From the NCBI RefSeq assembly GCF_014211915.1, contig NZ_CP060039.1, positions 2,294,001 to 2,358,000 of the forward strand: 64,000 nt of DNA. The letters are read 5' to 3'. This DNA is from Burkholderia cenocepacia (lineage in GTDB: Bacteria; Pseudomonadota; Gammaproteobacteria; Burkholderiales; Burkholderiaceae). The notes under the pieces are model-generated. The model was given only the letters and a program-made list of their open reading frames with translations, was not told the origin of the DNA and did no database searches. The translations under genes and the position numbers were made by a program. Below, piece by piece: positions 44,489 through 56,994 of the stretch; position 1 is the stretch's first letter; every line of letters starts with the position of its first letter.

Positions 44489-45793
44489 ATGGACGTCCAG
44501 ACCGACCAAGCTGCGCTGTCCGCGCATGACACCCGGCGGCGCGTGTTCGCCATCGTCGGCGCCTCATCGGGCAACCTCGTCGAGTGGTTCGACTTCTACA
44601 TCTACTCGTTCTGCGCGCTGTACTTCGCGCCGGCATTCTTCCCGAGCGGCAACACGACGACGCAGCTGCTGAACACGGCCGGCGTGTTCGCGGCCGGCTT
44701 CCTGATGCGTCCGATCGGCGGCTGGCTGTTCGGACGCATTGCCGACCGTCACGGCCGTCGCGCGGCGATGATGATCTCGGTGCTGATGATGTGCGGCGGG
44801 TCGCTCGTGATCGCGGTGCTGCCGACCTATGCGCAGATCGGTGCGCTCGCGCCGGCGCTGCTGCTGGTCGCGCGCCTGTTCCAGGGCCTGTCGGTGGGCG
44901 GCGAATACGGGACGAGCGCGACCTACATGAGTGAAGTGGCGCTGAAGGGCCGTCGCGGCTTCTTCGCGTCGTTCCAGTACGTGACGCTGATCGGCGGCCA
45001 GCTGTGCGCGCTGCTGGTGCTCGTGATCCTGCAGCAGACGCTGTCGGCCGGCGAACTGAAAGCGTGGGGCTGGCGCATTCCGTTCGTGGTCGGCGCGGCG
45101 GCCGCGCTGATTTCGCTGTACCTGCGCAAATCGCTCGACGAGACGTCGACGAGCGCATCGCGCGACAAGAAGGACGCCGGCACGATCCGCGGCGTGTGGC
45201 AGCACAAGGGCGCGTTCTTCACGGTGGTCGGCTTCACGGCCGGCGGCTCGCTGATCTTCTACACGTTCACGACGTACATGCAGAAGTACCTCGTGAACAC
45301 CGCCGGCATGCACGCGAAGACGGCCAGCAACGTGATGACCGTCGCGCTGCTCGTCTACATGCTGATGCAGCCGGTGTTCGGCGCGCTGTCGGACAAGATC
45401 GGCCGCCGCACGTCGATGATCCTGTTCGGTTCGTTCGCGGTGATCGGCACGGTGCCGCTGATGCATGCGCTGAAGGGCGTGACGAGCCCGGTGGCCGCGT
45501 TCGTGCTGATCACGGTTGCGCTGGCGATCGTCAGCTTCTACACGTCGATCAGCGGCCTGATCAAGGCCGAGATGTTCCCGCCGGAAGTGCGCGCGATGGG
45601 CGTGGGCCTGTCGTATGCGGTCGCGAACGCGATCTTCGGCGGCTCGGCCGAGTACGTCGCGCTGTGGTTCAAGTCGATCGGCAGCGAGGAAACCTTCTAC
45701 TGGTACGTGACCGTGCTGTGCGCGATCTCGTTGATCGTGTCGTGGCGGATGCGCGATCCGAGCAAGGAAGGGTACCTGCGCCACGAGCCGTGA
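44489..45793 (+). CDS. MHS-family MFS transporter, KgtP-like (alpha-ketoglutarate permease type)
   Basis: 434 residues from ATG 44489, about 12 membrane helices. MHS signatures: [62 protein letters not shown], and [15 protein letters not shown]. The N-terminal [13 protein letters not shown] and the [13 protein letters not shown] loop are closest to KgtP. Likely a proton symporter for a dicarboxylate such as 2-oxoglutarate. AAAAGGA lies 11 bases before the start. Confidence 0.9.
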
Positions 45794-45858: not shown

Positions 45859-45929
45859 GCGGCGTGCGATGACGTGCGCGGCGGCATCCATTGTTCGACC
45901 CGCGAAGTGCCGGCATGAGCGCGCCGCGT

Positions 45930-45941
45930 CATATCGATATG
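45930..45941. promoter_or_regulatory. 12-base palindrome upstream of the small RNA promoter
   Basis: CATATCGATATG, ending 12 bases before the -35 of the candidate small RNA. Possible operator. Confidence 0.4.
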
Positions 45942-45953
45942 GAAATCGATTCG

Positions 45954-45982
45954 TTGTCCGTGGCGGGCGATTTCCTTAATCT
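45954..45982 (+). promoter_or_regulatory. Sigma-70 type promoter of candidate small RNA
   Basis: TTGTCC (45954-45959), 17-base spacer, TAATCT (45977-45982). Predicted transcription start near 45989. Confidence 0.5.
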
Positions 45983-45988
45983 GACTGC

Positions 45989-46053
45989 GTAGTTCGTGTG
46001 ACACCTCCTTGACTGGGATTCGCGCCCGCTGCTTGCAGCGGGCGTCTTTTTTT
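45989..46053 (+). ncRNA. Candidate small RNA with anti-Shine-Dalgarno segment
   Basis: About 65 nt from a predicted start to a perfect terminator: CGCCCGCTGC/GCAGCGGGCG arms at 46023-46044, then TC and seven T (46047-46053). The unpaired 5' part contains CACCTCCTTGA at 46002-46012, matching the 3' end of 16S rRNA and therefore complementary to ribosome binding sites. A promoter sits at the right distance and no protein-coding frame is present. The long U tail fits an Hfq-bound RNA. Not a known named RNA to me. Confidence 0.55.
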
Positions 46054-46249: not shown

Positions 46250-47065
46250 ATGAAAATCAACACGCTCGCTACGTGGCTCGTCGGGGTCGCGCTCGTTACC
46301 GCAGGCACCGTCGCCCATGCGGACCGTCTCGACGACATCAAGAAGGCCGGGGTGCTGCGCGTCGCGACGTTCGACAGCAATCCGCCGTTCGGTTATGTCG
46401 ACGCGAAAAGCAACCACATCGTCGGTCTCGACGTCGATTACGCGAAAGCGCTCGCCGACAAGCTCGGCGTGAAGCTGCAGCTGCAACCGACCAACCCCGC
46501 GAACCGTATCCCGTTCCTGACCTCCGGCAAGGTCGACCTCGTGCTCGCGAACTTCACGATCACCGACGAGCGCGCGAAACAGGTCGACTTCAGCATCCCG
46601 TATTTCTCGTCGGGCCAGCAATTTCTCGCGAAGAAGGGCGTGCTGAAATCGGCCGACCAGCTGAACGGCCTGCGCGTCGGTGCGGACAAGGGCACGACCA
46701 ACGAGATCACGCTGCGCGAGAAATTCCCGAAGGCGACGATCGTCGCGTACGACGACACGCCGTTCGCGTTCGCCGCGCTGCGCGCCGGCAACGTGCAGGC
46801 CATCACGCAGGACGGCCCGAAGCTGATCGGCCTGCTCGCGAACGTGCCCGACAAGCAGAACTACGAGATCCCGGCGTTCACGATCTCGAACGACTACATG
46901 GGCGTCGGTGTGCCGAAGGGCGAGACGCGCCTGCTCGGCTTCGTCAACGACACGCTGAAGGGGCTCGAGGCGAACGGCCGCGCGACGCAGATCTACGACG
47001 CATGGTTCGGGCCGACGACGAAAACGCCGCTCACGCGCATTTTCCGGATCGGCGACAAGACCTGA
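46250..47065 (+). CDS. Amino-acid ABC transporter periplasmic binding protein
   Basis: 271 residues with a signal peptide cleaved near VAHAD. SBP family 3 pattern: RLDDIKKAGVLRVATFDSNPPFGYVDAKS, LDVDYAKALADKLGV, DLVLANFTITDERAKQVDFSIPYF and LRVGADKGTTNEITLREKFP. It most resembles glutamate/aspartate or cysteine binding proteins; the ligand is not certain. It is followed by two permease genes. Confidence 0.9.
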   Translation: MKINTLATWLVGVALVTAGTVAHADRLDDIKKAGVLRVATFDSNPPFGYVDAKSNHIVGLDVDYAKALADKLGVKLQLQPTNPANRIPFLTSGKVDLVLANFTITDERAKQVDFSIPYFSSGQQFLAKKGVLKSADQLNGLRVGADKGTTNEITLREKFPKATIVAYDDTPFAFAALRAGNVQAITQDGPKLIGLLANVPDKQNYEIPAFTISNDYMGVGVPKGETRLLGFVNDTLKGLEANGRATQIYDAWFGPTTKTPLTRIFRIGDKT

Positions 47066-51117: not shown

Positions 51118-51175
51118 TAATCGGCCACCCTGAGCCGCCGCATTGTATCGGCGGTGAATGATCCGAGGTCAGAAC

Positions 51176-52378
51176 ATGAATAACAAACGCACCCTGTGGC
51201 GCCGCACGCGGCTGGCGCCGTTCGCGCTCGCGGCCCTGTTGGCCGTGGCCGGATGTGGAAAGGGCGACAAGGATGCCGCGCCGGAGACCGCGAAGCAGGC
51301 CACCGTCGTGACGGTGCGCCCGACGGCCGTGCCGATGACCGTCGAACTGCCGGGCCGGCTCGACGCCTACCGGCAGGCGGAAGTCCGCGCGCGGGTCGCG
51401 GGCATCGTCACCGCACGCACCTACGAGGAAGGCCAGGAAGTGAAGCAGGGCGCGGTGCTGTTCCGCATCGATCCCGCGCCGCTGAAGGCCGCACGCGACG
51501 CCGCGCAGGGCGCGCTCGCGAAGGCGCAGGCCGCCGCGCTCGCGGCGACCGACAAGCGCCGCCGTTACGACGATCTCGTGCGCGACCGCGCGGTGAGCGA
51601 GCGCGACCATACCGAAGCCGTCGCGGCCGATACGCAGGCGAAGGCCGAGGTTGCATCCGCGAAGGCCGAGCTCGCGCGCGCGCAGTTGCAGCTCGATTAC
51701 GCGACCGTCACCGCGCCAATCGCGGGCCGCGCACGGCGCGCGCTCGTGACCGAGGGCGCGCTCGTCGGCCAGGACCAGGCGACGCCGCTCACGACCGTCG
51801 AGCAGCTCGATCCGATCTACGTGAACTTCTCGCAGCCGGCCGCCGACGTCGACGCCTTGCGTCGCGCGGTGAAGAGCGGGCGCGCGACGGGCATCGCGCA
51901 GCACGACGTCGCGGTGACGCTGCTGCGCGCCGACGGCACCGCGTATCCGCTGAAGGGCAAGCTGCTGTTCAGCGATCTCGCGGTCGATCCGACCACCGAT
52001 ACCGTCGCGATGCGCGCGCTGTTCCCCAATCCGGAGCGCGAGCTGCTGCCGGGCGCGTACGTCCGGATCGCGCTCGACACGGCGGTCGACCAGCGGGCGA
52101 TCCTGGTGCCGCGCGACGCGCTGCTGCGCACCGCCGACCGGACGTCGGTGCGCGTCGTCGGCGCGAACGGCAAGGTCAAGGACGTCGAGGTCACGGCCGA
52201 CCAGATGAGCGGCCGTGACTGGCGCATCACGCGCGGCCTCGCGGGCGGCGAGCGCGTGATCGTCGACGACGTCGCGCAGTTCGCGCCCGATACGGCCGTC
52301 AAGCCCGTCGAAAAAGCGCCGCCGTCGAAGGCGGCGCCGGCAGCGGCCGCTTCGCAGGCGGCCGCCCGTCAAACCTGA
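51176..52378 (+). CDS. amrA: RND pump periplasmic adaptor (AmrA-like)
   Basis: 400 residues from ATG 51176 (GAGG eight bases upstream). Lipoprotein signal with lipobox AVAGC. Then the membrane-fusion fold: lipoyl half ELPGRLDAYRQAEVRARVAGIV, an alpha-hairpin around 100-165, the second lipoyl half VTAPIAGRARRALVTEGALV, a beta-barrel and a Ala/Lys-rich tail. It joins the RND protein to the outer-membrane channel. In B. pseudomallei this pump exports aminoglycosides and macrolides; B. cenocepacia has the counterpart usually called RND-3. Confidence 0.92.
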   Translation: MNNKRTLWRRTRLAPFALAALLAVAGCGKGDKDAAPETAKQATVVTVRPTAVPMTVELPGRLDAYRQAEVRARVAGIVTARTYEEGQEVKQGAVLFRIDPAPLKAARDAAQGALAKAQAAALAATDKRRRYDDLVRDRAVSERDHTEAVAADTQAKAEVASAKAELARAQLQLDYATVTAPIAGRARRALVTEGALVGQDQATPLTTVEQLDPIYVNFSQPAADVDALRRAVKSGRATGIAQHDVAVTLLRADGTAYPLKGKLLFSDLAVDPTTDTVAMRALFPNPERELLPGAYVRIALDTAVDQRAILVPRDALLRTADRTSVRVVGANGKVKDVEVTADQMSGRDWRITRGLAGGERVIVDDVAQFAPDTAVKPVEKAPPSKAAPAAAASQAAARQT

Positions 52379-52393
52379 CCGGTTCAAACCAAC

Positions 52394-55300
52394 ATGGCAC
52401 GTTTCTTCATCGATCGCCCCGTCTTCGCGTGGGTGATCGCCATCTTCATCATGCTGGGCGGCCTGTTCGCGATCCGCGCGCTGCCCGTCGCGCAGTACCC
52501 GGACATCGCGCCGCCCGTCGTCAGCATCTATGCGACGTATCCGGGCGCGTCCGCGCAAGTCGTCGAGGAATCGGTGACCGCGCTGATCGAGCGCGAGATG
52601 AACGGCGCGCCGGGGCTGCTGTATACGTCCGCGACGAGCAGCGCGGGGGCTGCGTCGCTGTACCTGACGTTCAAGCAGGGCGTGAACGCCGATCTCGCGG
52701 CCGTCGAAGTGCAGAACCGGCTGAAGACGGTCGATGCGCGCCTGCCTGAGCCGGTGCGCCGCGACGGCATCCAGGTCGAGAAGGCCGCCGACAACATCCA
52801 GCTCGTCGTGTCGCTGACCTCCGACGACGGCCGGATGACCGACGTGCAGCTCGGCGAATACGCGTCGGCGAACGTGGTGCAGGCGCTGCGCCGCGTCGAG
52901 GGTGTCGGCAAGGTGCAGTTCTGGGGCGCCGAATATGCGATGCGGATCTGGCCCGACCCGGTGAAGCTGGCCGGGCACGGCCTCACCGCGTCGGACATCG
53001 CATCGGCCGTGCGTGCGCACAACGCGCGCGTGACGATCGGCGACATCGGCCGCAGCGCGGTGCCGGACAGCGCGCCGATCGCGGCGACGGTGTTCGCGGA
53101 CGCGCCGCTGAAGACGCCGGCCGATTTCGGGGCGATCGCGCTGCGTGCGCAACCCGACGGCTCCGCATTGTTCCTGCGCGACGTCGCGCGCATCGAGTTC
53201 GGCGGCAACGATTACAACTATCCGTCGTACGTGAACGGCAAGGTCGCGACCGGGATGGGCATCAAGCTCGCGCCGGGCTCGAACGCGGTGTCCACCGAGA
53301 AGCGCGTGCGCGCGACGATGGACGAGCTGTCCAGGTACTTCCCGCCCGGCGTGAAATACCAGATCCCGTACGAGACGTCGTCGTTCGTGCGCGTGTCGAT
53401 GAACAAGGTCGTCACGACGCTGATCGAGGCCGGCGTGCTGGTGTTCCTCGTGATGTTCCTGTTCATGCAGAACCTGCGCGCGACGCTGATTCCGACGCTC
53501 GTCGTGCCGGTCGCGCTCGCGGGCACGTTCGGCGTGATGTATGCGGCCGGCTTCTCGATCAACGTGCTGACGATGTTCGGGATGGTGCTCGCGATCGGCA
53601 TCCTCGTCGACGACGCGATCGTCGTCGTCGAGAACGTCGAGCGGCTGATGGTCGAGGAAGGGCTCGCACCGTACGACGCGACCGTCAAGGCGATGAAACA
53701 GATCAGCGGCGCGATCGTCGGGATCACCGTGGTGCTGACGTCGGTGTTCGTGCCGATGGCGTTCTTCGGCGGCGCGGTGGGCAACATCTACCGGCAGTTC
53801 GCGCTGTCGCTCGCGGTGTCGATCGGCTTCTCGGCGTTCCTCGCGCTGTCGCTGACGCCCGCGCTGTGCGCGACGCTGCTCAAGCCGGTGTCGGGCGACC
53901 ATCACGAGAAGCGCGGCTTCTTCGGCGGGTTCAACCGCTTCGTCGCGCGGGCGACGCAGCGCTACGCGACGCGGGTCGGCGCGATGCTGAAGAAGCCGGT
54001 GCGCTGGCTCGTCGTGTACGGCGCGCTGACCGCGGCGGCCGCGCTGATGCTCACGCAACTGCCGACCGCGTTCCTGCCGGACGAGGACCAGGGCAACTTC
54101 ATGGTGATGGTGATTCGCCCGCAAGGCACGCCGCTCGCGGAGACGATGCAGAGCGTGCGCGCGGTCGAGTCGGCCATCCGTCGCGACGAGCCGACCGCCT
54201 ATACGTATGCGCTCGGCGGCTTCAACCTGTACGGCGAAGGGCCGAACGGCGGGATGATCTTCGTCACGCTGAAGAACTGGAAGGAACGCAAGGCCACGCG
54301 CGATCACGTGCAGTCGATCGTCGCGCGCATCAACGAGCGCTTCGCGGGCACGCCGAACACGACGGTGTTCGCGATGAACTCGCCGGCGCTGCCCGATCTC
54401 GGTTCGTCGAGCGGCTTCGACTTCCGGCTGCAGAACCGCGGCGGGCTCGATTACGCGACGTTCAGCGCCGCGCGCGAGCAACTGCTCGCGGCGGGCGGCA
54501 AGGATCGCGCGCTCACCGACCTGATGTTCGCGGGCACGCAGGACGCGCCGCAACTGAAGCTCGACATCGATCGCGCGAAGGCGTCCGCGCTCGGCGTGTC
54601 GATGGACGAGATCAACACGACGCTCGCGGTGATGTTCGGCTCCGACTATATCGGCGACTTCATGCACGGCACGCAGGTGCGGCGCGTGATGGTGCAGGCC
54701 GACGGGCGGCACCGGCTTGATCCGGACGACGTGAAGAAGCTGCGCGCGCGCAACGCGCGCGGCGAGATGGTGCCGCTCGCGGCGTTCACGACGCTGCACT
54801 GGACGCTCGGGCCGCCGCAACTCACGCGCTACAACGGTTATCCGTCGTTCACGATCAACGGCTCGGCCGCGGCCGGCCACAGCAGCGGCGAGGCGATGAG
54901 CGCGATCGAGCGGATCGCCGCGAAGCTGCCGGCCGGCATCGGCTATGCGTGGTCGGGGCAGTCGTTCGAGGAGCGGCTGTCGGGCGCGCAGGCGCCGATG
55001 CTGTTCGCGCTGTCGGTGCTCGTCGTGTTCCTCGCGCTCGCGGCGCTCTACGAGAGCTGGTCGATTCCGTTCGCGGTGATGCTGGTCGTCCCGCTCGGCG
55101 TGATCGGCGCGGTGCTCGGCGTGACGCTGCGGATGATGCCGAACGACATCTATTTCAAGGTGGGACTGATCGCGACGATCGGGCTGTCCGCGAAGAACGC
55201 GATCCTGATCGTCGAGGTCGCGAAGGACCTCGTCGCGCAGCGCATGTCGCTCGTCGACGCGGCTCTCGAGGCCGCGCGCCTGCGGCTGCGGCCGATCGTG

Positions 55301-55534
55301 ATGACGTCGCTCGCGTTCGGCGTCGGCGTGCTGCCGCTGGCGTTCGCGTCGGGCGCCGCGTCCGGCGCGCAGATGGCGATCGGCACCGGCGTGCTCGGCG
55401 GCGTGATCACGGCGACCGTGCTCGCGGTGTTCCTCGTCCCGCTGTTTTTCGTGATCGTCGGCCGCCTGTTCGACGTCGGCCCACGCCGGCGCGGCGGGGC
55501 GCAGCCGACGACGATGGAGGGTTCGCAACCATGA
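52394..55534 (+). CDS. amrB: RND-family multidrug efflux transporter (AmrB-like)
   Basis: 1046 residues, HAE1 class. First helix FIDRPVFAWVIAIFIMLGG, the second-repeat helices, the proton-relay Asp pair in FGMVLAIGILVDDAIVVVENVE, and the conserved NPALCATLLKP-like LTPALCATLLKP. Two large periplasmic loops form the drug-binding porter. A trimer that exchanges protons for drugs. It starts 15 bases after amrA and overlaps oprA by four bases. Confidence 0.95.
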   Translation: MARFFIDRPVFAWVIAIFIMLGGLFAIRALPVAQYPDIAPPVVSIYATYPGASAQVVEESVTALIEREMNGAPGLLYTSATSSAGAASLYLTFKQGVNADLAAVEVQNRLKTVDARLPEPVRRDGIQVEKAADNIQLVVSLTSDDGRMTDVQLGEYASANVVQALRRVEGVGKVQFWGAEYAMRIWPDPVKLAGHGLTASDIASAVRAHNARVTIGDIGRSAVPDSAPIAATVFADAPLKTPADFGAIALRAQPDGSALFLRDVARIEFGGNDYNYPSYVNGKVATGMGIKLAPGSNAVSTEKRVRATMDELSRYFPPGVKYQIPYETSSFVRVSMNKVVTTLIEAGVLVFLVMFLFMQNLRATLIPTLVVPVALAGTFGVMYAAGFSINVLTMFGMVLAIGILVDDAIVVVENVERLMVEEGLAPYDATVKAMKQISGAIVGITVVLTSVFVPMAFFGGAVGNIYRQFALSLAVSIGFSAFLALSLTPALCATLLKPVSGDHHEKRGFFGGFNRFVARATQRYATRVGAMLKKPVRWLVVYGALTAAAALMLTQLPTAFLPDEDQGNFMVMVIRPQGTPLAETMQSVRAVESAIRRDEPTAYTYALGGFNLYGEGPNGGMIFVTLKNWKERKATRDHVQSIVARINERFAGTPNTTVFAMNSPALPDLGSSSGFDFRLQNRGGLDYATFSAAREQLLAAGGKDRALTDLMFAGTQDAPQLKLDIDRAKASALGVSMDEINTTLAVMFGSDYIGDFMHGTQVRRVMVQADGRHRLDPDDVKKLRARNARGEMVPLAAFTTLHWTLGPPQLTRYNGYPSFTINGSAAAGHSSGEAMSAIERIAAKLPAGIGYAWSGQSFEERLSGAQAPMLFALSVLVVFLALAALYESWSIPFAVMLVVPLGVIGAVLGVTLRMMPNDIYFKVGLIATIGLSAKNAILIVEVAKDLVAQRMSLVDAALEAARLRLRPIVMTSLAFGVGVLPLAFASGAASGAQMAIGTGVLGGVITATVLAVFLVPLFFVIVGRLFDVGPRRRGGAQPTTMEGSQP

Positions 55535-56994
55535 TGTTTGCGCTGAATGCACGTGGCGCGCTGAGGGTACCGCTCGCGCTGGCCGCCGCGCTCGCGCTCG
55601 CCGGGTGTTCGCTCGCGCCGCGGTACGAGCGCCCGGCCGCGCCGGTGCCGGCGACCTATGCGCCGGTCGACGGCGGCACGACGCCGGCCGCCGAACCGGC
55701 CATCGCGCAGGATGCCGCGCTGCTCGACGACTGGCATGCGTATTTCACCGATCCGGCGCTTCAGGCGTGGATCGACGCGGCGCTCGCGAACAACCGCGAC
55801 CTGCGGATCGCCGCCGGCCGGCTCGAGGAAGCGCGTGCGCTGTACGGCGTGCAGCGCGCGGACCGGATGCCGTCGGTCGATGCGAATCTCGGCTATGAGC
55901 GCGCGCGCCAGTACGACCCGGTCGTGCGCGAAAGCGCGATCAGCGGGCTGTATCGCGCGGGTGTCGGCGTCAGCGCGTACGAGCTCGACCTGTTCGGCCG
56001 CGTGCGCAGCCTGTCCGATGCGGCGCTCGCCGACTATTTCGCGACGGCCGATGCGCAGCGCACGGTCCGCATCGGCGTGATCGCCGAAGTGGCGGGCGCG
56101 TACGTTTCCGAACGATCGTTGCATGAGCAACTGGCGCTCGCCCAGCGCACGCTCGATGCGCGCGAGCGGATGGCCGCGCTCACGCAACGCCGCTATGCCG
56201 CCGGCACGAGCGACGCGATCGAGCTGCGCTCGGCCGACATGCTGGTGGCGTCCGCGCGCGCGTCGCAGGCCGCGCTGCAGCGCGAGCATGCGCAGGCCGT
56301 CCGCGCGTTGCAACTGCTGGCGGGCGATTTCGCGCGCAACGTGCCGGACGACGCGACCGCGCTCGATTCGCTGTCGATCGCGCCCGTGGCGCCGGGTGCG
56401 CCGAGCCAGTTGCTCGAACGGCGGCCGGACATCCGGCAGGCCGAGGCACGGCTGAAGGCCGCGAACGCGAACATCGGCGCGGCGCGCGCGGCGTTCTTCC
56501 CGCGCATCGCGCTGACGACCGACTACGGCTCGGTGAGCGACGCGTTCTCGAACCTGTTCGCGGCCGGCACGAGCGTATGGACGTTCGCACCGCGCATCAC
56601 GCTGCCGATCTTCGCGGGCGGACGCAATCGCGCGAACCTCGACGTCGCGCACGCGCGCAAGGACATTGCGGTCGCCGAATACGAGAAGGCGGTGCAGACC
56701 GCGTTTCGCGAAGTGGCCGATGCGTTCGCCGCGCGCGACTGGATCGACCGGCAACTGGTCGCGCAGCAGGACGTGTATGCGGCGGACGGCGCGCGGCTGA
56801 AGCTCGCGGAGCGTCGTTATGCGGGCGGTGTCGCGACCTATCTCGAGCTGCTCGACGCGCAGCGCAGCACGTACGAGTCGGGGCAGGAGCTGATCCGGCT
56901 CAGGCAGCTCAGGCTCGCGAATGCGATCGCGCTGTATCGCGCGCTCGGCGGCGGCTGGGCGCCGGCCACGGCGGAGGCCGCGGCTTCCGCGTGA
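55531..56994 (+). CDS. oprA: Outer-membrane efflux lipoprotein (OprA/OprM-like)
   Basis: 487 residues, starting at the first of two adjacent ATGs (55531) after GGAGG. Lipobox LALAGC; then NodT-type duplicated OEP domains: LQAWIDAALANNRDLRIAAGRLEEARA, YELDLFGRVRSLSDAAL, RRPDIRQAEARLKAANANIGAARAAFFPRI and GVATYLELLDAQRSTY. It forms the TolC-like exit channel of the AmrAB pump. The AmrB stop overlaps its start (ATGATG context), so the three genes form one operon. Confidence 0.93.
   Translation: MMFALNARGALRVPLALAAALALAGCSLAPRYERPAAPVPATYAPVDGGTTPAAEPAIAQDAALLDDWHAYFTDPALQAWIDAALANNRDLRIAAGRLEEARALYGVQRADRMPSVDANLGYERARQYDPVVRESAISGLYRAGVGVSAYELDLFGRVRSLSDAALADYFATADAQRTVRIGVIAEVAGAYVSERSLHEQLALAQRTLDARERMAALTQRRYAAGTSDAIELRSADMLVASARASQAALQREHAQAVRALQLLAGDFARNVPDDATALDSLSIAPVAPGAPSQLLERRPDIRQAEARLKAANANIGAARAAFFPRIALTTDYGSVSDAFSNLFAAGTSVWTFAPRITLPIFAGGRNRANLDVAHARKDIAVAEYEKAVQTAFREVADAFAARDWIDRQLVAQQDVYAADGARLKLAERRYAGGVATYLELLDAQRSTYESGQELIRLRQLRLANAIALYRALGGGWAPATAEAAASA

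Follow-up and report, generated by a model that had tools for sequence, protein, structure and literature searches.

The question raised by this locus is whether a stretch of about 65 bp between two transporter genes is a gene of its own and, if it is, to what it is related and on what it might act. It lies in a window of 64,000 nucleotides, the whole stretch of DNA analysed, which is C1:2294001-2358000 of the 7.6-Mb genome of Burkholderia cenocepacia, and it is very probably the gene for a small regulatory RNA. The first-pass annotation had named the parts of such a gene, namely a promoter TTGTCC-N17-TAATCT, a 12-base palindrome, an anti-Shine-Dalgarno (anti-SD) seed, and a terminator with seven T, and all of them were located in the sequence. 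The promoter, the CACCTCCTTGA segment, and the terminator with its seven T fall within 45954-46053 on the plus strand. The features of the locus and its neighbours are as follows.

44489..45793, plus strand: MFS metabolite/H+ symporter of the PRK10406 family, the upstream neighbour (profile match)
45880..45918, plus strand: apparent relic GGIHCSTREVPA* (12 residues) of a PAD_porph deiminase C-terminus (translation matched by eye to the protein at L154, a locus in another genome)
45930..45941, no strand: 12-bp palindrome CATATCGATATG, a candidate regulator site just 5' of the promoter (sequence)
45941..45953, plus strand: conserved element in the interval from the palindrome to the -35 box, GGAAATCGATTCG here (50-copy comparison)
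45954..45959, plus strand: -35 box TTGTCC (TTG kept in 50/50 copies)
45977..45982, plus strand: -10 box TAATCT (TAnnCT kept in 48/50 copies)
45989..46053, plus strand: predicted sRNA of about 65 nt (promoter, terminator, conserved block)
45989..46020, plus strand: near-invariant segment GTAGTTCGTGTGACACCTCCTTGACTGGGATT (identical in 47/50 copies)
46002..46012, plus strand: anti-SD seed CACCTCCTTGA (first nine bases are CACCTCCTT)
46006..46018, plus strand: weak 4-bp hairpin TCCT/GGGA, 46006-46009 with 46015-46018 (predicted folds)
46022..46053, plus strand: intrinsic terminator, stem 46022-46045 and U-tract (T7) 46047-46053 (terminator scan)
46250..47065, plus strand: substrate-binding protein (SBP) of an amino-acid-type ABC transporter (SBP_bac_3), the downstream neighbour (Pfam match above cut-off; NCBIfam amino-acid models match below their cut-offs)

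The predicted start of the RNA, 45989, is the seventh base 3' of the -10 box. By manual count 7 of the 12 hexamer positions in the promoter agree with the sigma-70 consensus, and a consensus scan at its cut-off reported the terminator and not the promoter, so the promoter call depends on conservation: all 50 copies keep TTG, 48 keep TAnnCT, and the spacer length is kept. The terminator stem had been described as a perfect 10 bp. It does have 10 pairs on manual counting, 9 of them Watson-Crick and one G.U, so that perfect is too strong a word. An own promoter and an intrinsic terminator with a U-tract (U7 here) are what one expects of an Hfq-dependent trans-acting sRNA. Nowhere in the window does an Rfam family attain its gathering score. 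The nine bases CACCTCCTT of the seed are part of a tail, CTGGATCACCTCCTTTCC, that occurs 6 times in the genome and that we take to be the 3' end of 16S rRNA; on that reading the seed repeats nine bases of the 16S 3' end, as had been proposed.

Blastn matches the block in 59 of 61 genomes sampled from the genus Burkholderia, and the two genomes missing a match are G032, which is 82%-complete, and G043, which is also missing a strong covariance-model match. The search gave 61 long matches (two genomes with two) and three short ones, and 50 of the 61 long matches, from 48 genomes, were aligned and examined. In these 50 copies the core has 29 of 33 columns invariant, at a mean identity of 0.99. 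Mean column identity is 0.57 in the upstream flank, 0.90 in the palindrome region, 0.87 in the -35 box, 0.68 in the promoter spacer, 0.90 in the -10 box, and 0.49 in the downstream flank. The spacer is 17 nt long in 48 copies and 18 nt in 2. The palindrome half-sites [CG]ATA-N4-TAT[CG] are kept in 41 of 50 copies, the full palindrome in 26, and the 45941..45953 element reads GAAATGCTTGG in the most divergent copies. An invariant core set against a drifting spacer and drifting flanks indicates that the block is a conserved unit under selection, beyond what chance would give. The annotation had asked whether promoter, seed and terminator are conserved and would have given up the idea had conservation been limited to the terminator. 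All three are kept, and this spread of conservation, in 59 of 61 genomes and over 29 of 33 core columns, supports its main claim of an independent sRNA gene with an anti-SD segment.

The segment 45989-46020 differs in only 3 of the 50 copies, L051, L062 and L063, and the -10 pattern TAnnCT is lost only in the latter two, which are second copies in their genomes. With a broken -10 box, changes in the core, and a better-preserved copy about 10 kb away, L062 and L063 look like decaying duplicates. Two copies about 10 kb apart occur in three genomes, at L154 (G316), L062 (G056) and L063 (G049), and at L154 the interval separating the copies also holds a chaperone-usher fimbrial cluster.

To look further out, a covariance model of 34 sequences (R1) was run on 299 genomes of the family, noting that runs on more than 40 genomes use stricter filters and lose some weak matches. 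Among the matches listed, 40 of 41 same-genus genomes score at least 87.7 bits, and there is no strong match outside the genus, the best listed being 35.7 bits. A 29-base core pattern matched exactly in 37 stretches of named species genomes, all Burkholderia. Hence the sRNA appears to be confined to the genus Burkholderia as far as seen. Of 17 loci with weak R1 matches, 11 are members of the Rfam family RF02278 above that family's own cut-off, three of them from same-genus genomes. Another weak match, L152 in another genus (29.9 bits), is by eye the reverse complement of an SD and ATG gene start and was taken as chance.

The neighbours bear on whether the block could instead be a cis-acting 5' leader whose attenuator controls the transporter operon downstream of it, a reading that would dispense with action in trans and that we regard as highly unlikely. 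The SBP gene is on the same strand, 197 nt 3' of the T-run, and in 15 of 50 copies it is the closest of the tested genes inside 320 nt, as the leader reading would have it; in the other 35, however, the nearest tested gene within that distance is another (15) or there is none (20), and the sequence 3' of the terminator is unconserved at its mean identity of 0.49. With six genes tested in the 50 copies, the nearest upstream gene within 320 nt is the MFS gene in 25 and a PAD_porph deiminase-family gene in 16, with 9 copies having none; on the downstream side SBP comes first in 15, an Abhydrolase_6 alpha/beta hydrolase (whole or in part) in 14 and a permease in 1, and 20 copies have none. That the block survives rearrangement on both sides argues for a function of its own and against a role as leader or 3'-UTR. 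The apparent relic upstream of the palindrome is too short to show in tblastn, and a PAD_porph deiminase-family gene is what adjoins the sRNA upstream in other species.

It is also conceivable that there is no RNA on the plus strand at all, and that the block is the start region of a small protein on the minus strand (AAGGAGG-N6-ACG...) or a DNA-binding site, which we consider very improbable. The minus strand does read AAGGAGGTGTCACACGAACTAC, an SD with the near-start codon ACG at good spacing, and in 44 of 50 copies another minus frame, from a GTG overlapping the SD, is stop-free over the 94 nt that were checked. Yet ATG, GTG and TTG are absent at SD spacing, and translation from the ACG would run into a stop within the checked region in 23 of 50 copies. 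All codon positions of the core are equally invariant, and the supposed coding part falls on the variable promoter spacer, in which residues are freely exchanged and a 1-nt insertion is seen in 2 of 50 copies. The sequence upstream of the supposed start is unconserved, and the T-run sits 3' of the stem on the plus strand.

The fold of the predicted RNA is of interest for how exposed the seed is. About 34 unpaired bases had been proposed ahead of the terminator. The weak hairpin 46006-46009/46015-46018 is predicted in two folds and missing from one centroid, and four bases of the seed have an unpaired probability of only 0.22-0.40, making the seed partly paired, so the proposal is right only in part. 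Taken whole, the RNA has only a moderate advantage in folding over shuffled sequences (z -1.75 and -2.14). Of the 11 pairs in the consensus fold, 2 are preserved by changes on both sides, both in the terminator; the four pairs of the first helix never vary, so covariation is uninformative on the hairpin.

As for relatives, the annotation had drawn a parallel to alphaproteobacterial RNAs and knew of no named one here. A nearer one exists, since the closest known family is the betaproteobacterial RF02278 (Betaproteobacteria_toxic_sRNA, the double-hairpin RNAs), which has four members in the same genome and is published in Burkholderia (PMC5688073, in the part available). The RF02278 model scores the locus at 29.7 bits, below its gathering cut-off of 50 bits. 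At E up to 0.01 it matches the locus with 26.7-32.6 bits in 21 of 21 genus genomes, which are one near-invariant locus and hence not independent matches, and 1 of 14 control genomes is also matched; at a loose E up to 10, 13 of 14 control genomes have matches. The same genome has, besides its four members above the cut-off, other weak matches of similar score, so the score alone is insufficient. B. cenocepacia J2315 is likewise reported to have four, namely ncS03, ncS05, ncS27 and ncS62 (PMC4603805 and PMC5688073, both as far as their available text goes).

The likenesses to these RNAs are in size, in the CU-rich anti-SD segment, in having an own promoter, in genus and genome, and in a GGATT-type motif 5' of a GC-rich terminator with U-tract. 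The differences are that the sRNA has one CU-rich site where RF02278 has two, that it carries an extra invariant 5' segment, GUAGUUCGUGUG, and that its strong matches, among the matches listed, are only in the genus Burkholderia. The CU-rich site 5' of hairpin 1 is the missing one and only the loop-side site remains, and hairpin 1 is reduced here to the weak 4-bp helix, with longer stems in the folds of L140 and L032. That helix may be a remnant or an analogue of hairpin 1, to judge from the predicted folds. The locus thus falls short of RF02278 in three respects (the cut-off, the two hairpins, and the second CU-rich site), which makes it a variant or relative and not a member. As the sequences compare, the first CU-rich site and the hairpin-1 stem appear to have been replaced by GUAGUUCGUGUG, and the loop-side anti-SD segment (ACACCUCCUUGA) and the terminator to have been kept.

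It has then to be asked whether the likeness reflects descent. A trans-acting anti-SD sRNA might have arisen by convergence, unrelated to RF02278, with the likeness coming from the anti-SD motif and a generic terminator. We consider this unlikely, although it does account for the sub-threshold score, for the missing stable hairpin-1 stem, and for the first 12 bases, which have no evident RF02278 counterpart. Weak matches are also unspecific, as two further families match the locus below their cut-offs and more weakly than RF02278, namely the alphaproteobacterial BjrC1505 (RF02356; 25.7 bits, cut-off 50, 140-position model) and the Burkholderia anti-hemB RNA (RF02837; 20.5 bits, cut-off 49.5, 81-position model). 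Against convergence stands the bridge RNA L140, from another genus of the family, which scores 49.4 bits with RF02278, has the RF02278 5' half and the identical 12-base loop ACACCTCCTTGA, and has TGACACCTCCTTGAC and TGGGA in common with the sRNA. The RF02278 and R1 models also each find the other's sequences, R1 finding one of the four RF02278 members of this genome at 28.5 bits (E = 5e-4). L148 scores 40.9 bits with RF02278, and L139, L144, L151 and L152, where no RF02278 match is found up to E 0.1, were left out as bridges.

The remaining point against convergence is in the upstream region. L035 is a second sub-threshold RF02278-like RNA of the same genome (42.5 bits; C2:1775336-1775404, minus strand; 1501-1569 minus within L035), which blastn matches in 41 of 41 genus genomes. 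Its upstream element is similar to the one here and in register with it. Over the 28 nt before the TTG the window copy agrees with L035 at 16 positions, a value reached by 5 of 20000 mononucleotide shuffles, and agreement ranges from 14 to 20 over the 50 copies. The best copy, L047, which is thereby a picked case, agrees at 20 of 28 (0 of 20000 shuffles), and for both it and the window copy other offsets give at most 10 agreements. A genome search with an upstream pattern made from L035 and the divergent copies found L035 as its only exact match (reversed control 0) and two one-mismatch sites on C3, the sRNA locus itself being outside the pattern. With L140, the reciprocal model matches, and the L035 upstream element favouring common descent, the sRNA is best read, on these sequence comparisons, as a divergent, single-site, uncatalogued relative of RF02278. 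There is in addition a weak RF02278-like candidate at L036 1501-1565 (C2:2003291-2003355), with 32.4 bits, a TCGTCTCCTCC start, and a terminator-like end.

The annotation had offered the neighbouring transporter genes or many mRNAs as possible targets. Duplexes with the neighbours are weak, at -13.2 kcal/mol for MFS, -17.2 for SBP and -12.6 for the permease, where the best of 17 window starts gives -28.3, and the neighbours vary among species, so the transporters are not favoured as targets. As for action on many mRNAs, conservation goes far beyond an SD-like seed, yet the conserved flanks bring no excess of strong start-region duplexes. Of 531 starts called in an 864-kb sample, the 316 with an SD gave 42 duplexes at or below -25 kcal/mol, versus a mean of 52.6 (sd 16.7) for 60 controls in which the seed was kept and the flanks were shuffled, 46 of which were at or above the real value; the starts were called with a crude ORF rule, and among the top 20 several look mis-called. 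The invariant flanks would then serve something else, which could be a small number of targets paired over a long stretch, contacts with proteins, or a partner other than an mRNA.

Pattern searches of the genome led to no target claim. The extended complement GTCAAGGAGGTGTCA with up to 2 mismatches has 4 sites, the locus itself with 0 mismatches and three with two, versus six for the reversed control. TCAAGGAGG-N4-9-ATG has 8 sites versus 3 in the control, the starts sharing no theme by eye. AAGGAGGTGTCACATGAA with up to 3 mismatches has 5 sites versus 0 in the control, these being the locus itself, a 121-aa MerR_1 protein present in two copies, an MFS_1 transporter, and a protein of the phage-baseplate-hub type that is cut by the end of its locus.

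The 32-base invariant segment is far longer than masking of an SD needs. It could be that the RNA copies the 16S 3' end together with a start-codon arm, in which the anti-SD (CACCUCCUU) and a 6-nt spacer would be followed by CGU opposite AUG by G.U wobble, with pairing onward in register. Such an RNA would address a single essential target as invariant as itself, or would act directly on the translation machinery, for instance by serving as decoy to a factor that binds the 16S tail, as opposed to being a generic multi-target repressor. The missing excess of start-region duplexes fits such a narrow or non-mRNA partner; even so, we rate this as quite unlikely.

We think it likely instead that the locus is an independent sRNA gene of about 65 nt on the plus strand with its own promoter and terminator, a divergent single-site relative of RF02278, most likely acting in trans. 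Building on sequence, conservation, synteny, and the likeness to RF02278, the RNA would be transcribed from its own sigma-70-type promoter, end at its own terminator, and be bound by Hfq at the U-tract. The anti-SD segment would pair in trans with purine-rich ribosome-binding sites and lower translation for a limited set of mRNAs, presumably those whose flanking bases also match. Weighing against this are the RF02278 score well under the cut-off, a promoter weak by consensus, the lack of duplex excess, and the partly paired seed. By analogy with described RNAs, Hfq-assisted masking of ribosome-binding sites in trans is the likely mode of action.

Of these, Bordetella pertussis S17 (S17S) is, by its available description, an RNA of 67 nt that is bound by Hfq, has an invariant CU-rich 5' part, and represses by pairing at a ribosome-binding site; S17 represses BP2158 by pairing, with compensatory mutations as proof, and S17S is described as similar to the RF02278 RNA bdhR1 (PMC11722255). 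It differs in being processed from a 190-nt precursor, where the sRNA here appears to start at its own promoter. The Neisseria NmsR RNAs, likened by description as discussed in PMC5688073, also have CU-rich stretches complementary to ribosome-binding sites, but they are a tandem pair with two CU-rich sites each. The accessible part of the same paper places 55-80% of the predicted interactions of double-hairpin RNAs at starts and reports that overexpression of ncS27 slows growth, with growth effects also for its antisense (PMC5688073). S17S reportedly showed no toxicity in exponentially growing E. coli (PMC11722255, in part), so toxicity would be no general trait of such RNAs.

With this locus the RF02278-like regulators of a Burkholderia genome gain an uncatalogued RNA that hardly changes, and L035 is a second. 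The two suggest that relatives are missed in the published figure of three to five double-hairpin RNAs per Burkholderia genome, as given in the part of PMC5688073 available, and that the Rfam cut-off hides single-site and short-hairpin variants. The near-invariant 32-base segment, next to a drifting promoter spacer, gives a handle on the constraints of anti-SD RNAs beyond the seed.

The open PMC literature, in which the sequence itself was also sought as text, gave no paper that we recognised as describing the locus. Further along the window, at 51158-56994, lies a multidrug RND efflux operon with an outer-membrane subunit of NodT type; PRK09578 and PRK09577 are matched above cut-off by its adaptor and permease. 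Because this pump looks like RND-3, the J2315 ortholog of the sRNA should presumably lie near BCAL1674, in a gap of replicon 1 between 1.18 and 2.54 Mb. BCAL1674 is named as RND-3 in the available part of PMC10175445, and the accessible Table 1 of PMC5688073 has no RNA on replicon 1 between those positions. The supplementary Table S2 of the latter paper is described there as holding 41 terminator-bearing short transcripts (PMC5688073), and the sRNA may be among them, detected without being discussed.
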